Part shown: positions 427-12,744 of the stretch, piece after piece | Layout of the letters: each line of letters begins with the position of its first letter | Position numbering within the stretch: the first letter of the stretch is position 1 | Origin: Candidatus Heimdallarchaeota archaeon LC_2 | GTDB lineage: Archaea; Asgardarchaeota; Heimdallarchaeia; Heimdallarchaeales; Kariarchaeaceae | Direction: 5' to 3' | Length of the DNA stretch: 15,781 nucleotides | Assembly (NCBI GenBank): GCA_001940725.1 | Contig: MDVR01000153.1 | Span: 1 to 15,781, forward strand | Program-made: the position numbers and the translations under genes | The notes under the pieces: generated by a model | Told to the model about the DNA's origin: nothing | The model's database searches: none | Seen by the model: only the letters and a program-made list of their open reading frames with translations

Positions 427-514
427 GCAGCATGTCAATTTTATGAGCAAACGCTCATAAATTTTTCAAGGAGTTGATGTCTCATTAATTATTAAGGGAA
501 ACAATCGATCGAAT
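427..514 (+). repeat. Direct repeat copy 1 with 8-bp hairpin
   Basis: This ~88-base element matches 2613-2694 closely. It contains a perfect inverted repeat: TTATGAGC (441-448), loop AAAC, then GCTCATAA (453-460). A block shared with copy 2 follows, centred on GGAGTTGATGTCTCA, and the element ends in ACAATCGATCGA. Both copies are in the same orientation. The stem is identical in both copies while the loop differs, which suggests that the hairpin itself is maintained. In copy 2 the element overlaps the 3' end of an integrase-like frame, so the likeliest identity is the right end of an insertion sequence. Confidence 0.75.
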
Positions 515-2158: not shown

Positions 2159-2227
2159 GTCCCATTGGAGAAAACAGTTATTGTTTGGTTCTTTGTTGAG
2201 ATCATTGTAACAGATACAATAAAACTT

Positions 2228-2358
2228 AGGAGGTGATCCGTCCGCACCTTCTTTTACCACAAAACACCTTGTTACGACTTCTTGCTACTCAAAAAGCAAA
2301 GACTCGTTCACGGCCTCTCGAAAGTGATCACAGCCTCATCAATACCCTTCTCGCCTCG
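2228..2358 (-). rRNA. Isolated 3'-terminal fragment of 16S rRNA (helix 44 to anti-Shine-Dalgarno tail), probably a relic
   Basis: On the plus strand the segment opens with AGGAGGTGATCC (2228-2239), the complement of the universal 16S 3' end. It contains ACCTTGTTACGACTT (2266-2280), the near-universal site around position 1492. Further into the rRNA, the minus strand reads as a helix 44-like stretch: CGAGGCGAG near 2357, GATGAGGC near 2340, and a returning arm ending in GCAAGAAGTCG. Similarity fades beyond about 2358, and the highly conserved ACACACCGCCCGTC block is absent, so about 130 bases survive. Between the two conserved blocks, the helix 45 region lacks the GGGGAACC-type loop that is normally dimethylated, which argues for a non-functional copy. 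No 23S or tRNA sequence is nearby. Confidence 0.8.
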
Positions 2359-2386
2359 ATTTTGAATTCACCTTTAGATTAAAAGG

Positions 2387-2656
2387 GTGGGTAATTTGTT
2401 ATGTTGTTGTGAAGAATCATATCATATTGAAGATCAAATTGTTTTCAATTTCCAAAAGGTGTGTTTCTTAATCAATATCGATCGATCGATCGAAGCAGTA
2501 GATAACTGGAGAGGCTTTTACAACAAGGTTCGGGTTCATTCATCAACCAAAATGACACCTCATGAACGATACCTTGGTCAGGAGGTAGAATATGCAGCCA
2601 AGTTTTCAGCATGGCAGCATTATGAGCATTCGCTCATAAAATTTGAATGGAGTTGA
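2387..2656 (+). pseudogene. C-terminal remnant of an rve-type integrase/transposase
   Basis: The 89-codon frame starts at a GTG without a ribosome binding site. Its first ~40 residues look unlike any family. From about residue 33 it reads RSIEAVDNWRGFYNKVRVHSS and then TKMTPHERYLG. This matches the C-terminal end of the DDE integrase core in IS481/IS3-type transposases, where a Trp-x-x-Phe-Tyr-Asn helix is followed by Arg-x-His-Ser-Ser and Thr-Pro-x-x-x-Tyr. The two upstream catalytic Asp motifs are missing, so it cannot be active. A 14-base CGATCG tract lies inside the frame just before the conserved part. The last codons run through the hairpin of repeat copy 2, linking that repeat to the element's end. 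Confidence 0.7.
2479..2492. repeat. CGATCG tract (three overlapping units)
   Basis: Three overlapping CGATCG palindromes lie inside the integrase relic, immediately before its conserved C-terminal motif. They encode the IDRSI stretch. Confidence 0.75.
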
Positions 2657-2694
2657 TGTCTCACTAATTATTAATGATAACAATCGATCGATTC
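2613..2694 (+). repeat. Direct repeat copy 2 with 8-bp hairpin
   Basis: This is the same element as 427-514. TTATGAGC (2620-2627), loop ATTC and GCTCATAA (2632-2639) form the hairpin, followed by GGAGTTGATGTCTCA and ending in CAATCGATCGAT. The integrase relic stops within it. The two copies bracket about 2.1 kb containing the beta-sandwich gene, the stalk relic and the 16S fragment. Confidence 0.75.
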
Positions 2695-4427: not shown

Positions 4428-7050
4428 AGTAAAGATAAGAATTACTTATTATGATACCCAATATGATTATAAGACTTGGAAAATAGAAATGAGGGTAAAT
4501 ATTAGTCAAGTTAATTGAATAATTGTCTTCATAAATGATTGATTCCGGGGAATAGTATTGAACTAAAAATGGTAAAACAATGCTCATGAATAAAATGGCA
4601 ATAACGGTATAAGTAATGAAATTATATACTACAATAGATAATGAAGTCAACCGGACATACTGCTTAAGTCTACCATTAAGTCGAAACATTTCCTTCGTTC
4701 CCTTGTCCCAAGTCTTCATTGTAAAAATATATAGAACATTGAAAAAAATTAATGATAGACCTGCATAAAATGCTAAGAGAGTAAATAATGAGAGGATTAC
4801 TGAATCAGTATAAGAGAGATTTTCCTCTCTATAAGCAGACAAGGTTGTCACTGTTACTGTTTTATGGGATTCAGCATAGTCATCTATCCTTTCTTGATCT
4901 ACCTCACTTGGATTACCAAGAATTATCCACGAAGTAATCACAGGATCATTAATTGTTAGATCTTCCCTTATGATATCATATAATGCTGCTGAGATTATAT
5001 AGACCGATTTTGATAGAGGAATAAATTCTAATCCAGGAAAATATTTGTATCCATGATTACCTATCGGGTATTGAAATTTTAAACTAGAATTGTACGAATT
5101 TTGAAAAGCAACCTGAGGGAGGCGAGTTAATTGTTGATCGATAAATATCTTATTTTCGGATATTGCCTTTAAATCTCCTTCACGAATGTCACTTATACTA
5201 GGTACATAATCATAGTTCATGAAATTATTAGGTAAAACCAGGAAATTTACACTGTAATTTGACCCTAGATCAATCAAACTAAAATTGAAATATTGAGTCT
5301 TTTGTATTAGACTAACAAGATCTGGATGTTCTGAGAATTCGCAGTCAATCCTTGAGCTTCCACCCATATAAAATGAGTAGGAGCTATCAATTCTTGAATT
5401 GTAAATGCTAGTATAGATATTAAATGTCAATAAGAACAAGATCAGTATTGATAATATTGTCGCATATCGAATTTTTTCTTTCTGATTAAATGAAGAAAAG
5501 CGTAAGAAAACATTATCAGTAATCACTTTATTAGAAAGATCCAAAACGACCATGAATGTCTTCATAAGGTAATAAACTCCAAAATATGCAATGAACATTG
5601 ATGATAGTAAGACTAAAATTAGTAAATTAATTTCAGCCAAAGCAGAATCCTGTCCCATATTTGCATAGGTTAGTCCTTTGACATCTTTAGTGAAATAAAA
5701 GTAAAGTACAAGACTCAAGTTACTGATTATTAATCCTATTATGACTTGTTTACTAAAAAATAGTTTGACTAAAGTGGATTCTCTTATTGCAAAAAATAGG
5801 TCAAATAATGAAATGATGATGAAGGAAAATAAAATACCAAACATGAGATCATTATAGGTCGATATCATTGAAAATACAGATTCGAAAACTGATCCGGTAA
5901 TGTCTAAATTCACGAAAAATATCGTAAGCATTAGAATTAATAGTGGTAAGGCTAAAATGAGAGCGGTTACATTTTGGACTATACTATCCAATAAAATTAT
6001 CAAAACTAATCTTGGCGGCGAAAAGCCCATTTTCAAAAACTTCCTATATTCATTGAGCCTGTGGGTATGCGAAGTCTGGTTAAATTGATGATACAAGGCA
6101 AGAATCAAGAAAAGGAAAGGTATTATGAATGGTATCAAACGAATTATCAATGATAAATTCATATCGATGAATCCAGTCAATACCTCATTTAGATTTGACC
6201 GGTAAACAATATTGACGGGATAAAAAATCTCAAATTTAGGATGGTAAAATTCCAGGTTAGTACTATATTCTCGATATTTATCAATATCTCGGAGAACCAA
6301 TTCATCTTCCTTATACGAAAAGAAAATATCCCCTTGTAGGTTTAAATCAACATAGTTAAAGTGGTTAATCAATGAAAGAAAGGTATCATAGTTTACTATA
6401 AACTGACTGAAGGAAACCAAATTTTGTAACCATTCCGAATCGATCGACTTCCTGATTTCTGCTGGTTGAAGTTGAGTTATGGCATTTATTTCTCCAATGA
6501 GATTATCTGCAGATTTTGAGGGTGATGCTGAGAAGTTTAATGAATGGATCGGATTTATAAAGAGGATAGTCAACTCTTCACTATTGTTAATTTTTCCTTG
6601 ATTCATAATTGGCAATAATTTGGCATACAAAAAATCATTCACTATTTTTATTCTAATATCCGGAAGAACATCTTCAGAATTACTTTCCTGTGATTTTGGA
6701 TAGTCTGAGAATTCAGCCGCATAGGCAACTGAATAATTCTCCAATATTCTTGAATTGCCACTCCTTTTCAGATCCACTGAAATATACTCTTCGATACGTG
6801 TAAAATACTGGATTTCAAGGTCCTGGAATTGTCCCTGAGAGTAGATGTCAGAAGATATTGTACCATCGGCCACTCTATTTGACGTGAAATACTCAGAAAC
6901 TGTTTTATCAAATAAAGAGTTCTTATATGCGAATATCGTAAAGATTGAGGAGAGGATTAAAACATGTAACATTATAAGTGAAAATTGGCGTTTTAATCGG
7001 ATTTGCGAATTTGACTTAATTGTTAGATATAGTAGAGATACTAGTTTCAT
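4390..7050 (-). CDS. FtsX/MacB-type ABC permease, two half-permeases fused
   Basis: The 886-residue membrane protein has an N-terminal helix at about 24-42 and a large ectodomain at about 45-295. A multi-helix block spans about 300-500; its cytoplasmic coupling segment reads KMGFSPPRLV near 339, the usual FtsX-domain signature. Another helix at about 530-548 and a second ectodomain at about 550-745 follow. Three final helices lie near 750-775, 805-830 and 858-880, with KEMFRLNGRLKQYV as the second coupling segment. This is helix-ectodomain-helices twice over, so one chain should equal a LolC/LolE-like pair, matching the two-domain ATPase. MacB/LolCDE-type systems extract or push lipids, lipoproteins, peptides or antibiotics at the outer face without a classical channel. 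The start lies five bases after the stop of the preceding propeller gene. The substrate is unknown. Confidence 0.9.
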   Translation of the reverse strand: MKLVSLLYLTIKSNSQIRLKRQFSLIMLHVLILSSIFTIFAYKNSLFDKTVSEYFTSNRVADGTISSDIYSQGQFQDLEIQYFTRIEEYISVDLKRSGNSRILENYSVAYAAEFSDYPKSQESNSEDVLPDIRIKIVNDFLYAKLLPIMNQGKINNSEELTILFINPIHSLNFSASPSKSADNLIGEINAITQLQPAEIRKSIDSEWLQNLVSFSQFIVNYDTFLSLINHFNYVDLNLQGDIFFSYKEDELVLRDIDKYREYSTNLEFYHPKFEIFYPVNIVYRSNLNEVLTGFIDMNLSLIIRLIPFIIPFLFLILALYHQFNQTSHTHRLNEYRKFLKMGFSPPRLVLIILLDSIVQNVTALILALPLLILMLTIFFVNLDITGSVFESVFSMISTYNDLMFGILFSFIIISLFDLFFAIRESTLVKLFFSKQVIIGLIISNLSLVLYFYFTKDVKGLTYANMGQDSALAEINLLILVLLSSMFIAYFGVYYLMKTFMVVLDLSNKVITDNVFLRFSSFNQKEKIRYATILSILILFLLTFNIYTSIYNSRIDSSYSFYMGGSSRIDCEFSEHPDLVSLIQKTQYFNFSLIDLGSNYSVNFLVLPNNFMNYDYVPSISDIREGDLKAISENKIFIDQQLTRLPQVAFQNSYNSSLKFQYPIGNHGYKYFPGLEFIPLSKSVYIISAALYDIIREDLTINDPVITSWIILGNPSEVDQERIDDYAESHKTVTVTTLSAYREENLSYTDSVILSLFTLLAFYAGLSLIFFNVLYIFTMKTWDKGTKEMFRLNGRLKQYVRLTSLSIVVYNFITYTVIAILFMSIVLPFLVQYYSPESIIYEDNYSINLTNIYPHFYFPSLIIILGIIISNSYLYYENKRSRFIEGN

Positions 7051-7055
7051 TCAAA

Positions 7056-8351
7056 TCAATTTTTCTTTCTTTTTAGTTTAAAGGATATTAACGTTAAGAT
7101 TGCAAGTAGTGAACCTGTGAATTGGAAATTCGATTTATTTTGAGTGGAAACATATGCCAACACTGATATTTCACCTTCGGAAATCAAATATATACTGCCA
7201 ATATTTTTTCTGTTTACTGTTCGGACAAAGCCGGTAAAATCATTGCTTTCACCAAACTTGACTTCATTGATTGGCTCATCAAAGGCAACAGTAGTAGAAT
7301 TCCAAATTGGATTTTCTAAACCTGTATTGATGCTGTGTAATTGTACAAAATTCTCAGGATAGGATTGGTAAGAAAGTAAATATACAATATTATCAATAAG
7401 AGCTATTTGAGGATACCTATTAGAAGATAATGAAATTTTATTAGAAATAAAGGATTTTTCCTTTTGGTCATAGATTGAAAATGAAACACTGCTGCCATTC
7501 CCACCACTTGATACTGTAATGAATTCATTACCATCTTGGGTAAGCACTTTTGGGGATGCAACAGGTTCAATACCTAAGATATCATTCAATTCAAATATTG
7601 ATTTGATTTGTCTGTCTTGTAATGTTTTAGATGTGATATTATAAGCACTGTTCAACAGGTAGTATCCAGTGGCATTTCTGGCCAAAATAGAATCTTTGAT
7701 TAGAGGTAAATCTAATTCCCTAAATGAGGAACTGAATACCAAATCAGTTCCATCCAGCATACTTACGGGATGATGAGCTTCAAATAAATTAGTTCCATCA
7801 AGAAATACATCATATCTATCTTCCTGTTTCAACCCTAACAAAATCATAAATACTTTATTTTCGTATATATCTACGTTATCAACTATGGTATAATACCCGA
7901 TATTATCAGGTATAAATAACAGTTCAATGGCTGGTTCATTAGATTTAAAATCAAACTTATAAATCCCCCCTCCTTTGGCTATGTCTTCACCAAATGCTAT
8001 TACAGCAAATAACTCAGCCCCTTTATTCAGGATTTTGTAGTTCAATTGCCCGTTTTCTGCATTCTCAAGTAAAATCCACTTCTGGACTTGTCCTGCTGAA
8101 AAGTAATAAGCAACTAAATTCCCACTCCCTGATGGATTAGGAGTTTCAAACTGAATTAGTGCAATATCATTTCCTTGCTTACTAATTTCTGGTGAAATAA
8201 TGTAGGTTTGCGTTTTAACTAGTAATATTAGTTCGTCTGATTGTGTTGCAGTCGATTGACTGTTGTCATTCAACCTATATATAATTGGTGTCCCTACTAT
8301 GATGAAACACAGTAATGAAATTTCTACTATGTAGAATTTATCAATTTTCAT
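7056..8351 (-). CDS. Membrane-anchored beta-propeller-like accessory protein of the ABC exporter
   Basis: From ATG 8351 the product is 431 residues. A signal/anchor helix lies at about 7-24 (IVEISLLCFIIVGTPII), then about 380 residues of repeated short beta strands with Gly/Asp/Asn turns, then a C-terminal helix (TGSLLAILTLISF) before KLKRKKN. The strand pattern fits a beta-propeller-like ectodomain; no blade motif is sharp enough to name the family. I chose ATG 8351 because TTTATAAATA lies 26 bases upstream, as expected for a leaderless message. The frame is also open to an ATG at 8399, which would add 16 residues (MEIHLDFINIGMYYML). It is the first gene of the operon, and its stop is five bases before the permease start, suggesting a sensor or substrate-presenting partner outside the membrane. 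Confidence 0.82.
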   Translation of the reverse strand: MKIDKFYIVEISLLCFIIVGTPIIYRLNDNSQSTATQSDELILLVKTQTYIISPEISKQGNDIALIQFETPNPSGSGNLVAYYFSAGQVQKWILLENAENGQLNYKILNKGAELFAVIAFGEDIAKGGGIYKFDFKSNEPAIELLFIPDNIGYYTIVDNVDIYENKVFMILLGLKQEDRYDVFLDGTNLFEAHHPVSMLDGTDLVFSSSFRELDLPLIKDSILARNATGYYLLNSAYNITSKTLQDRQIKSIFELNDILGIEPVASPKVLTQDGNEFITVSSGGNGSSVSFSIYDQKEKSFISNKISLSSNRYPQIALIDNIVYLLSYQSYPENFVQLHSINTGLENPIWNSTTVAFDEPINEVKFGESNDFTGFVRTVNRKNIGSIYLISEGEISVLAYVSTQNKSNFQFTGSLLAILTLISFKLKRKKN

Positions 8352-9394: not shown

Positions 9395-10183
9395 TCATTG
9401 CTCAGGATACAATTCATTATGATTCAAATCGGAATGTTTTCCCTTAAATTTCCTAAGAGCTTTGAAAATTAAAAATAACGAAACTACAAGGATTATTATC
9501 ATAATGAGCATATTGAATAGACCAATCAAAGCGATTGGAGCAATATCATAATTATAGGCTTTCGTATTTGTGAAAGTTGAACAATCTGTGACCTCTACTA
9601 CATTACTCCAACCAATGTCGTCATTTGTATCATAGTTAATTGATAATATTTCATCATCAGGAGCAACAACGGGATTAACCCAGAACAGACGAAATTTTGT
9701 ATTTTGTTTTGTATGGATTAAATCAAACTGGCCAGAATAATAGTAGTTTTCAATTTCCAAAGGGAAATCAAGCGATTTGGAAGAATGTAATTCCAATGTA
9801 TTGTTTCTTAGATCATTATTTAATTGATTCAAACGCAAATAATTAACCGAATCATCATATAAAGCGAATGCTGAAAAATTCAACCATAATGGGTTAATGT
9901 TATCAATATCTATTGTAAATTGTCCAATATCAATTTCAGGAATCTGTTCATCAAAGTAAATTGTTCTAATAAAATCGGACTCATCGACCTTATATATTTC
10001 TAACAATTGAACATCGCCTTCTTGAGCCAAAATTACCATGTATTTTCCATTTAACAATATTTGATCAGCTGAATATGGCGTATCTGCTAAAAGCCCTAAT
10101 TTCTCGTCAATAAACAAATCATCATCATTTGGTGAATTTACTGAAGGCCAGTCCCACATGACTTTGAAATCGGTGGTGAACAT
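9395..10183 (-). CDS. C-terminally anchored extracytoplasmic protein lacking a signal peptide, probably 5'-truncated
   Basis: The 262-residue product is a beta-rich, Asp/Asn-rich domain at about 1-210, a strong membrane helix at about 215-240 and a basic cytoplasmic tail (KALRKFKGKHSDL). The plan is the same as in the propeller-like protein at 7056-8351 but without an N-terminal signal sequence, so export would fail as annotated. The frame stays open upstream past ATG 10183, through the CGATCG tract, to a TAG near 10314. That extension overlaps the polymerase start and adds no hydrophobic segment. Only five bases separate its ATG from the PolB ATG, leaving no room for a normal promoter. I read it as the 3' part of a longer surface-protein gene cut at this junction. 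Expression is uncertain. Confidence 0.6.
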   Translation of the reverse strand: MFTTDFKVMWDWPSVNSPNDDDLFIDEKLGLLADTPYSADQILLNGKYMVILAQEGDVQLLEIYKVDESDFIRTIYFDEQIPEIDIGQFTIDIDNINPLWLNFSAFALYDDSVNYLRLNQLNNDLRNNTLELHSSKSLDFPLEIENYYYSGQFDLIHTKQNTKFRLFWVNPVVAPDDEILSINYDTNDDIGWSNVVEVTDCSTFTNTKAYNYDIAPIALIGLFNMLIMIIILVVSLFLIFKALRKFKGKHSDLNHNELYPEQ

Positions 10184-10188
10184 TTGGA

Positions 10189-12744
10189 ATGTCCCATTTA
10201 TTTCGAAGATGTTGGGATATATTCGATCGATCGATCGATGATCAATCGGGCGATCCCTTCGATACAGAAATTGTACGTAAGACCGATCTATTATTTGACG
10301 AAGAGATCGATACTATAGAACTAACTGATCTAGAGTCCATTGAAGTATTCACCAACGAATTTGATCGAAAGAAACGTAAGATCCACAATCCACTGCCTGT
10401 ACAGTTGATGTACTTTCACAAGACAGGTTTGATTCCAGGAACATGGATTAAAATTGAGAATAATGAATTAATCAAGGTCTCCAAGAATGATTCAGAGGAG
10501 ATGAAAAATAAAACAGAGGATATCAAGAGATTGTTGTTGGGTGACAGCAAAATCATAATTGATCTTTGTCAGGAAAATATACCTATTATGGAGGACAGTA
10601 TTCCTGATATCAAACGTATCGGCTTTGATCTGGAAGTTGCTTCGCCAAGAGATACCTTTCCTATTCCAGAAGAGGCCAGTTTTCCTATTAATGCAATTGC
10701 TTCTTACGATAATAGTGGAAGGGCAGTTATCTGGTTATTATCTTATGAGCCCACTAGAAAGGAGAGAAAAGATATAGAGAAAAGATTGGGATACATTCCA
10801 ACCATCAAGACATTTATTCTTGAGAAGGATCTGATCAAATCATTTTATACTGAATTAATTGATTATCCCATCATATTAACCTATAATGGAGATAGTTTTG
10901 ATTTACAGTATTTGTTTTATCGATCTAAAAGGCTGGGAATTGAGAGCCCGATTGTCAAAGGACGTTATCTTTTCTACAGAGAGGAATGGCAGTTCACACA
11001 TTCTATTCATATCGATCTCTACCGTCTTTTATCAAACAACGCGGTAAGATTATATGCTTTTGGGGCTAAGTATTCCAGATCAAGATTGATGGATGTGGGA
11101 GAGGCACTGGTTGGTAAGAAAAAAGTTGAGCATGATCTATGGTTTGATGAGATGTCAAGGGCTGAAATGATTGAATACAATATCAGAGATGCTGAACTAA
11201 CACTGCAATTAACAACATTCAACAATAATCTTACTTGGAAATTATTTATTATCTTAATGCGAGTGGGAAGATTATCTCTTGCTTATGTTAATCGTGCACC
11301 CATCTCCAAATGGATTCTAAACTGGATTATTGCTGAACATGAGAGAAGAAATCTTGTCTTACCCAGAAAGAAAGATCTGGAAAAGCTAAAGGGCAGCTTT
11401 GAATCGGATTCACTTGTTGATGGAAAGGGCTTCAAGGGTGCAATAGTACTTGATCCCAAACAGGGGGTATTCTGGGATGTTTCGGTGGTGGATTATAATT
11501 CCCTCTACCCAACGACAATTAAAAATTATAATTTATCCTATGAGACCATACGTTGTCTACATGAAAGTTGTAAAACCAATACAGTTCCTGGTCTTGAACA
11601 CTGGGTATGTCGAAAACGAATAGGCATTATGTCATCACTGGTTGGCTTTCTACGTGAGATCAGGGTGCGATACTACAAGGATATGAGTAAATCCAAGGAT
11701 CAAGACCAAAGAGAGCTGGGGAATACAATTCAAGCTGCACTTAAGGTGTTTATCAATGCATCTTACGGGGTATTTGGTGCCCCTAATTTCTATCTTTATT
11801 GTCCACCCGTGGCAGAATCAACTACTGCTCTATCCCGTTCAATGTTACTCAAAGCAAAAGATTTGGCAGAGGAAATGGGATTAACAGTATTGGGAGGTGA
11901 TACCGATTCCATATTTGTCCATAAAATTTCAAAGGATCAGATGGCACAACTCACTGAGTGGTCGGTAATTGATCTGGGAATTGAGCTTGGCCTTGACTAT
12001 ACCTTCAGATTCATGGTATTATCAAGCAGAAAGAAGAATTATTTCGGAATAACCACAGATAACAAGATTATCATCAAAGGATTGGCCATCAAGAAGAGTA
12101 ACACTGCCCAGTTTATCAGAGGGACTTTTGATACAGTTGCTGATATGTTGAAATTAGTGAAAAACAAGGATGATCTGGAGGATGCTAAACAATTCATGAT
12201 CAGATTAATCTATGAGAAGTTACAGATGCTGAAGAATGAACAGATCCCACTTGAGGATCTTCAACACATGGTATCACTAAATAAGAAATTTAGTGATTAC
12301 TTTGCCAAGACTCCTGCTGTCCAGATAGCCCTGCAAGAGATGAATGAGAAGAACGAGCATCAGATTACCAGAGGTACACAATATGTGACAATCAAGGTGA
12401 AATCCTTCACCATTGAAATTAAAACAACAATGTTTCTAAATTTCCAGAAACATCACTTTGTAGAGTGTTCCTATAAGGAAACCAAGAAAGTGAAGAACTA
12501 TAATGAAATTGACATGAAACACTATACACAAGCAATGAAAAAGGCATTCTTACCGATTTTCGATGCATTTGATCTTAATTATGATAAAGTGGTAACCAAT
12601 AGAAATCAGGATATTATGGAGACAATAAGACACACAGATGATGACATGATGATTGTTCCGGAGAATATTATAAATGTCGGTAAGGTTTTGGAAAGTGCAG
12701 AAAAACAATTTATTGATGGTAATATTGAGGAATTTGGTTTCTAA
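10189..12744 (+). CDS. polB: Family B DNA polymerase, PolB1-like, with intact proofreading and polymerase sites
   Basis: The 851-residue enzyme keeps all motifs. Exo I is FDLEVA with D147 and E149. Exo II is NGDSFD with N233 and D238. Exo III is YNIRD with Y330 and D334. Motif A is DYNSLYPT with D435. Motif B is KVFINASYG with K519, N523, Y526 and G527. Motif C is GGDTDS with D571 and D573. KKNYFG follows at 615-620. It should copy DNA and proofread. The KNYNLSYETI after motif A and the RAPISKWI and RRNLVLPRK stretches are typical of the PolB1 type. Motif C has Gly where Tyr is usual (YGDTDS). Exo I lies near its position in Pyrococcus enzymes (about 141), while Sulfolobus PolB1 has a longer N-terminus, so the start is plausible but not certain. 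Residues 11-17 are encoded by a CGATCG tract, and no TATA box precedes ATG 10189. Confidence 0.95.
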   Translation: MSHLFRRCWDIFDRSIDDQSGDPFDTEIVRKTDLLFDEEIDTIELTDLESIEVFTNEFDRKKRKIHNPLPVQLMYFHKTGLIPGTWIKIENNELIKVSKNDSEEMKNKTEDIKRLLLGDSKIIIDLCQENIPIMEDSIPDIKRIGFDLEVASPRDTFPIPEEASFPINAIASYDNSGRAVIWLLSYEPTRKERKDIEKRLGYIPTIKTFILEKDLIKSFYTELIDYPIILTYNGDSFDLQYLFYRSKRLGIESPIVKGRYLFYREEWQFTHSIHIDLYRLLSNNAVRLYAFGAKYSRSRLMDVGEALVGKKKVEHDLWFDEMSRAEMIEYNIRDAELTLQLTTFNNNLTWKLFIILMRVGRLSLAYVNRAPISKWILNWIIAEHERRNLVLPRKKDLEKLKGSFESDSLVDGKGFKGAIVLDPKQGVFWDVSVVDYNSLYPTTIKNYNLSYETIRCLHESCKTNTVPGLEHWVCRKRIGIMSSLVGFLREIRVRYYKDMSKSKDQDQRELGNTIQAALKVFINASYGVFGAPNFYLYCPPVAESTTALSRSMLLKAKDLAEEMGLTVLGGDTDSIFVHKISKDQMAQLTEWSVIDLGIELGLDYTFRFMVLSSRKKNYFGITTDNKIIIKGLAIKKSNTAQFIRGTFDTVADMLKLVKNKDDLEDAKQFMIRLIYEKLQMLKNEQIPLEDLQHMVSLNKKFSDYFAKTPAVQIALQEMNEKNEHQITRGTQYVTIKVKSFTIEIKTTMFLNFQKHHFVECSYKETKKVKNYNEIDMKHYTQAMKKAFLPIFDAFDLNYDKVVTNRNQDIMETIRHTDDDMMIVPENIINVGKVLESAEKQFIDGNIEEFGF
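10224..10237. repeat. CGATCG tract (three overlapping units)
   Basis: Three overlapping CGATCG palindromes lie in the first codons of the polymerase, encoding FDRSID, right at the head-to-head junction with the truncated surface-protein gene. Confidence 0.75.

Follow-up and report, generated by a model that had tools for sequence, protein, structure and literature searches.

A lone 16S rRNA 3' end in a Heimdallarchaeota contig and the recurrence of displaced 16S ends in Asgard archaea

Contig MDVR01000153.1 of Candidatus Heimdallarchaeota archaeon LC_2, of which we analysed a stretch of 15,781 nucleotides (hereafter the window), carries about 130 bases that resemble the 3' end of 16S rRNA. 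Are these bases a real piece of a 16S gene and, if so, how did they come to stand where they do? Window positions 2360-2228 on the minus strand are homologous to the archaeal 16S 3' minor domain and comprise helix 44, the 1492 block, helix 45 and the anti-Shine-Dalgarno tail. The parts of the fragment and the features around it are as follows.

2281..2360, minus strand: helix 44 of 16S rRNA, 5'-truncated near its first base pairs (match to covariance model R1; 22 of 28 homologous pairs standard)
2265..2282, minus strand: conserved 1492 block AGAAGTCGTAACAAGGTG, with no difference from G018 and G001 in the alignment
2240..2265, minus strand: helix 45, altered, with a 4-base insertion and the GGAA loop lost (column comparison with 13 kin)
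2228..2239, minus strand: anti-Shine-Dalgarno tail GGATCACCTCCT, intact and identical in the kin aligned
2204..2227, minus strand: probable start of the 16S trailer, AAGTTTTATT followed by a hairpin; AAGTTTTATT resembles G022
2387..2656, plus strand: transposase relic, located 5' of the rRNA fragment, with an integrase-core C-terminal motif (rve_3, E 0.013, 15.6 bits, under the Pfam cut-off of 26.5)
428..512, plus strand: direct repeat D1, copy 1, a putative insertion-sequence end (repeat comparison)
2607..2691, plus strand: direct repeat D1, copy 2, 84% identical to copy 1 (repeat comparison)

The identity of the fragment was assessed with a covariance model, R1, built from 13 Asgard 16S 3' domains with the window excluded; nine of these come from the class of G001 (Candidatus Heimdallarchaeota where its members are named), three from Lokiarchaeota and one from Baldrarchaeum. 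In a search of 31 kb, R1 matched the window at 2360-2224 (minus strand) with 54.0 bits (E 1.6e-12) over model positions 1-126, the full model length. Four genuine full-length 16S ends scored 121-129 bits in the same search, all four being R1's own members, and the truncated 16S end of G001, which is outside the R1 set, scored 99 bits. BLAST of the stretch matched the 16S 3' ends of four of the eight genomes examined from the nearest family, 'nearest' being judged by the 16S end only (G018, G021, G022 and G001; 75-78%, E 1.1e-9 to 3.7e-13). A fifth match (G016, L131, E 0.011) is not 16S and was taken as chance. Given the R1 score and the BLAST matches, the similarity extends well past the 15-base universal block, which bears out what the sequence-only reading had proposed for about 130 bases of 16S 3' end. 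The orphan genuinely derives from a 16S gene.

The fragment also stands alone, as had been claimed. The 15.8-kb window contains no other rRNA (Rfam) and no tRNA; the fragment itself falls below the Rfam gathering score and is unlisted in the Rfam search even at E 10. The upstream 16S body is absent from the window, with none in the 13.4 kb that lie 5' of the fragment, and the 16S-end copy is single, no second one having been found. In the alignment with kin there is no similarity upstream of helix 44, at the ACACACCGCCCGTC block, so that the homology starts at what we take to be about E. coli position 1410-1416, just past this missing block. At the other end, blastn alignments continue past the tail to 2218 against G022 and to 2220 against G021, the trailer likeness to G022 amounting to about 10 bases. 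A 6-bp hairpin (ATTGTA/TACAAT) follows AAGTTTTATT; kin trailers also have a hairpin here, and the two may be homologous. The further claim that a gene relic starts exactly where the rRNA ends was not borne out: the open reading frame (ORF) at 2065-2247 shares bases with the rRNA tail and matches no family above the Pfam cut-off.

Judged from its sequence, the fragment is probably a decayed relic or pseudogene and not a functioning RNA. Over 134 bases of the fragment, the predicted fold is no better than that of shuffles (z -0.31), and helix 44 of the window alone gives z +0.71, against z -4.01 for the same piece of a genuine 16S end (G018). As was noted from the sequence at the outset, the conserved blocks are intact while the helix 45 loop between them is altered; in the 1492 block AGAAGTCGTAACAAGGTG, G021 and G022 each differ by one base. 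Considered as a functional 16S gene or a piece of one, the fragment has the homology and lacks the upstream 16S body, an intact helix 45 with its GGAA loop and a stable fold. The evidence from helix 44 is less direct. Its 22 standard pairs of 28, as assigned by hand, were reached by 8 of 20,000 shuffles of the 3' strand, and six pairs are flagged as non-standard in the R1 alignment. The kin break 0-5 of the same 28 pairs (mean 1.7), so that on its own helix 44 argues only weakly for decay; the six broken pairs in the window are one above the worst functional kin (G022, five). The 22 kept pairs, far above the shuffled strand, are as expected for a copy of a real gene. In helix 45, 4 of the 14 columns that are invariant in the 13 kin are changed, compared with 0 of 34 such columns elsewhere (Fisher p 0.005; the columns were counted by hand, and the contrast was chosen after seeing the data and depends on gap placement). 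Decay, if neutral, was therefore uneven, the changes among kin-invariant columns being confined to helix 45, and a single local event there is one possible reason. Several Heimdall 16S genes have short insertions at helix 45.

We consider it improbable that the fragment is a working RNA, either as the 3' part, encoded apart, of a split 16S or as a small RNA mimicking the decoding region or titrating Shine-Dalgarno sites. The kept helix-44 pairs would suit such a role but are already predicted by descent from a real gene. The two universal blocks are intact and the changes cluster in helix 45 (p 0.005), unlike the prediction of uniform decay; nevertheless the helix 45 loop is lost and the fold does not exceed that of shuffles. 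A second orphan, in G046, has an intact helix 45 and begins at about the same point, which also favours function, and complete 16S genes in three nearest-family genomes (G018, G021 and G022) argue in the opposite direction. A split 16S with trans-splicing was considered after the G046 orphan, in whose genome no 16S body was found, and was set aside for the window only, where helix 45 is altered. Of the three origins first suggested, debris and the footprint of an attachment site both survive, whereas the small RNA is not supported by the fold values or by the altered helix 45.

The same altered helix bears on the possibility of an assembly artefact, in which two contigs were joined via 16S reads. 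Several Asgard contigs do end in or just after the 16S 3' end. However, a join of this kind should have an intact helix 45, and a 22-base piece that includes the altered helix 45 has no exact match in our collections of genome contigs and viral contigs. Since it exactly matches nothing in these two collections, a chimera is unlikely, and we regard an artefact as very improbable.

How, then, did a decaying 16S end come to lie here? Two explanations deserve weight. In the first, a host-lineage 16S end, from helix 44 to the tail and probably the start of the trailer, would have been copied as DNA and, 5'-truncated and non-functional, would now be decaying. Insertion of DNA at the 16S 3' end would have supplied a fresh end, keeping the real gene intact, and the old end, displaced by the insert, would have been left behind as an orphan. 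There is a parallel in tRNA genes: genomic islands and proviruses that target tRNA genes leave displaced tRNA 3' ends. These resemble the window copy in being lone 5'-truncated 3' fragments of a stable-RNA gene, and differ in that the target here is 16S and that neither an integrase nor an intact gene at the other end was seen. Our tentative preference, which falls just short of an even chance, is that the window copy is an old displaced 16S end, most likely left by an insertion at the 16S 3' end. The copy is, as such an end should be, the 3' end of a gene and 5'-truncated.

In the second explanation, a piece of the 16S end was copied during a rearrangement as ordinary debris of recombination or of insertion sequences, unconnected with any insertion hot spot at 16S. 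We hold such debris, near insertion-sequence relics, to be nearly as likely as a displaced end. The two D1 copies, 85 bases each (428-512 and 2607-2691), flank the rRNA fragment on either side, and the transposase relic adjoins it. The region has also been rearranged, since the PolB encoded in the window (10189-12744) is without about 83 first residues of its close homologues; the similarity starts at 10255, and a minus-strand ORF begins at 10183. Moreover, the nearest family has no displaced ends at its 16S genes. On the other hand, the copy ends with the natural 16S 3' end, probably with trailer, like the recurrent displaced ends described below, and debris need not do so. No site-specific recombinase or homing endonuclease was detected by Pfam in 14 of the 28 listed window ORFs, only the weak transposase-core motif; a recombinase for the window copy may act in trans or lie outside the window.

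The remainder of the window was compared with other genomes. The PolB is 84-86% identical to Candidatus Heimdallarchaeota proteins, one of them from LC_2, and 75% identical to one Kariarchaeaceae protein. Among the 58 genomes of the class of G001, 26 were matched by this PolB at a strict threshold, the best at only 48% identity, so there is no close relative among them. An 885-residue permease-like protein of the window has no match in the eight nearest-family genomes. Window proteins and DNA compared with the fetched 16S loci revealed no common neighbourhood, only ABC-domain matches and the 16S itself. Plasmid records gave no match, and phage records, among the matches listed, only ones at E 0.06 or worse. 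Short ATCGATCG runs are scattered across the intergenic parts of the window.

To survey displaced 16S ends, we took from each genome the last 45 or 60 bases of 16S together with 200 bases of trailer and searched for them in the DNA downstream in the same genome. Matches were accepted up to E 1e-3 in the class, phylum and non-Asgard sets and up to 1e-2 in the long-range comparison in the nearest family and G025; inverted matches, seen for example in G025, G140, G230 and G231, were not counted, and a single copy sometimes gave several matches. Within the class of G001, where a locus is the 16S end with some downstream DNA (1.6-28 kb), same-strand copies occur in 11 of 23 loci (G024, G031, G004, G002, G026, G039, G027, G034, G007, G037 and G058). 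Seven of these include bases of the 16S tail (G024, G004, G002, G027, G007, G037 and G058), and in G024, G004, G002, G007 and G037 the copy begins no more than three bases from TGGATCACCTCCT, the junction of helix 45 and the tail, one of these five having a changed base in TGGATCACCTCCT. Copies with 16S bases are the stronger evidence, because trailer-only parts are terminator-like and could spread for other reasons.

Elsewhere in the phylum, a further 11 of 42 loci were positive, G123 weakly (58% identity); six include 16S bases (G087, G185, G198, G206, G210 and G218) and the remainder trailer only. This set started from 45 loci chosen for a 16S match with downstream room, G091 contributing two; G087, G181 and G092 were added after surfacing as candidates, four loci (G184, G193, G217 and G221) have less than 0.8 kb of downstream DNA, and G094, G122 and G153 were dropped when the pattern found no 16S end. 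Matches were most numerous in G198 (11), G210 (10) and G201 (8), where again a single copy sometimes gave several. Among 38 non-Asgard genomes searched, 11 had a 16S end and nine were fetched; with G257 and G261 dropped, in which the pattern found no 16S end, a same-strand copy was present in 0 of 7 testable loci, two of which have inverted matches. Displaced 16S ends thus recur beside other genes in Asgard genomes, where they were presumably displaced by insertion; site-specific insertion, a homing endonuclease and homologous recombination are all candidate mechanisms.

Several observations stand against the displaced-end reading of the window copy. The four loci of the nearest family have no displaced same-strand copy downstream of 16S (9 kb in G001, 16.8 kb in G018, 5 kb in G021 and 60 kb in G022), the window lacks a 16S 5' of the fragment, and the piece is longer than most: displaced ends mostly hold about 10-50 16S bases or trailer only, compared with about 130 in the window and G046.

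Orphans were sought in 227 phylum genomes, 115 of which gave any match; 10 contigs that scored low or matched twice were then selected by eye. Five of the 10 held orphans: G194 (three), G087, G195, G081 and G205. Four others (G109, G120, G092 and G111) proved to be contig-end cases, that of G111 being a bacterial-type 16S, and G181 carries an insertion in a complete 16S; copies at the start of contigs in G027 and G039 were left out of the count. No 16S body was seen upstream of the orphans in G046, G062, G195, G205 and G081. The cases in G046, G062 and G058 came from the model and BLAST searches. The G046 orphan has about 120-130 bases and begins close to where the window copy does, and that of G062 consists of the last 27-29 16S bases plus trailer. 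The 5' flanks of the window and G046 copies share no likeness beyond chance (1429 of 2000 shuffles) and no significant junction motif. In G058, a displaced end made of the last 22-23 bases plus trailer lies 3.25 kb downstream of the true 16S, and the insert encodes a beta-propeller protein and a C13-type peptidase on the opposite strand.

Some Asgard arrays reach about 10 copies, with toxin-antitoxin and other genes between them. Contig C9 of G194 has 8 copies within 14 kb and none in the remainder of its 74 kb; linkage of this array to 16S is not shown, as the true 16S ends another contig. Its cargo comprises PemK, three PIN, VapB, Fic, UPF0175 and DUF3368 (families in 8 of 10 scanned ORFs, which were chosen). 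In G198 we found HicA, VapB, two PIN, ParE, UPF0175, DUF3368, GNAT, PSII_BNR, LVIVD and PK_C (families in 11 of 15 scanned, of 18 ORFs), and in G210 HNH, AlkZ-like, ParE, LVIVD, DUF4256 and OmdA (6 of 10 scanned, of 14 ORFs). Between the copies of G027 and G039 are tandem paralogues of a protein of about 530 residues with sub-threshold TPR matches. The five scanned neighbours (of 7) in G147, a copy-free control, are mostly housekeeping genes. The Pfam scans, which took in none of the 7 ORFs in G119, cover too few ORFs, with one control, for us to claim cargo enrichment, and no integrase was found among the cargo proteins scanned.

The 16S ends of these archaea also vary in themselves. Insertions of about 30-40 bases, which may be mini-introns, lie inside helix 45 of the Heimdall 16S loci L187, L190, L191, L192 and L196 (G031, G004, G027, G034 and G026). 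L193, L195, L196 and the G037 16S have an insertion at the junction of helix 45 and the tail, where several displaced tails start. The trailers of L187, L190, L192, L196 and L200, whose helix 45 has an insertion, contain CCTTGTTRYGAC, the reverse complement of the 1492 block, which by its sequence could pair with the 16S end. L202 (G046:C13) has, at about 1480-1515, a hairpin-like insert of about 30 bases within the anti-Shine-Dalgarno tail, between GGAT and CACCTCC. At about 7045-7155 of a 4.9-Mb contig, L243 (G053:C1) has a run of N in place of the 16S after its first ~117 bases, either a scaffold gap or masking.

Insertion at this very site has been described. HeimM2 was inserted exactly between 16S and tRNA-ArgTCT in Ca. 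Heimdallarchaeum, and HeimV2 (44 kb) has the same 16S 3' insertion site (Wu et al. 2022, PMC8813620). As described in the parts of that paper on which we draw, both lie, as inserted DNA, directly at the 3' end of the sole 16S gene of a Heimdall-group archaeon; unlike the window, they are elements of 8 and 44 kb beside an intact 16S, and displaced 16S ends are unmentioned in those parts. In the window, 16S and tRNA are both absent, so that the position between 16S and tRNA-Arg does not apply; no homing endonuclease was found among the ORFs scanned, and there is only a relic. Downstream of the G025 16S there are copies of the trailer that lack tail bases, at 38.0, 40.8 and, weakly (E 0.003), 45.0 kb, as well as a tRNA-like gene, its anticodon unresolved, at about 44 kb; this layout would fit the published HeimV2 (44 kb). 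The suggestion that the fragment marks an attachment site thereby gains support, both from displaced ends beside inserted genes in other Asgard archaea and from what these parts of the paper say of HeimM2 and HeimV2.

A second known system for comparison is that of integrons and CALINs, which are reported to be enriched in Asgard archaea with toxin-antitoxin cargo (Ghaly et al. 2022, PMC9668308). Some of the Asgard arrays found here are similar in having same-strand repeats between short, toxin-antitoxin-rich genes. The repeats seen here differ in being copies of the 16S tail and trailer, and term searches of the main text of that paper gave neither '16S' nor 'rRNA'. A CALIN is defined by at least 2 attC sites less than 4 kb apart; the 16S-end copy in the window is single. 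Among the open-licence PMC papers listed in our searches, no description was found of recurrent displaced 16S ends with gene arrays at the Asgard 16S 3' end, nor anything further on such ends or on arrays anchored at 16S.

Taken alone, the fragment is modest and most likely a pseudogene; its value is as a pointer to a recurrent pattern. A broader and more doubtful proposal is that in several Asgard lineages the 16S 3' end anchors a gene-capture system, in which cassettes, often of toxin-antitoxin or defence genes and each terminated by a copied 16S tail and trailer, would be added serially downstream, the window orphan then being a fossil in a lineage that has no array now. Should insertion at the 16S 3' end be recurrent in Asgard archaea, false 16S matches could arise from displaced tails, and the pattern may help to explain why contigs break there and why 16S was not found in many of the genomes examined. 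The site would also be a place to look for mobile genes.
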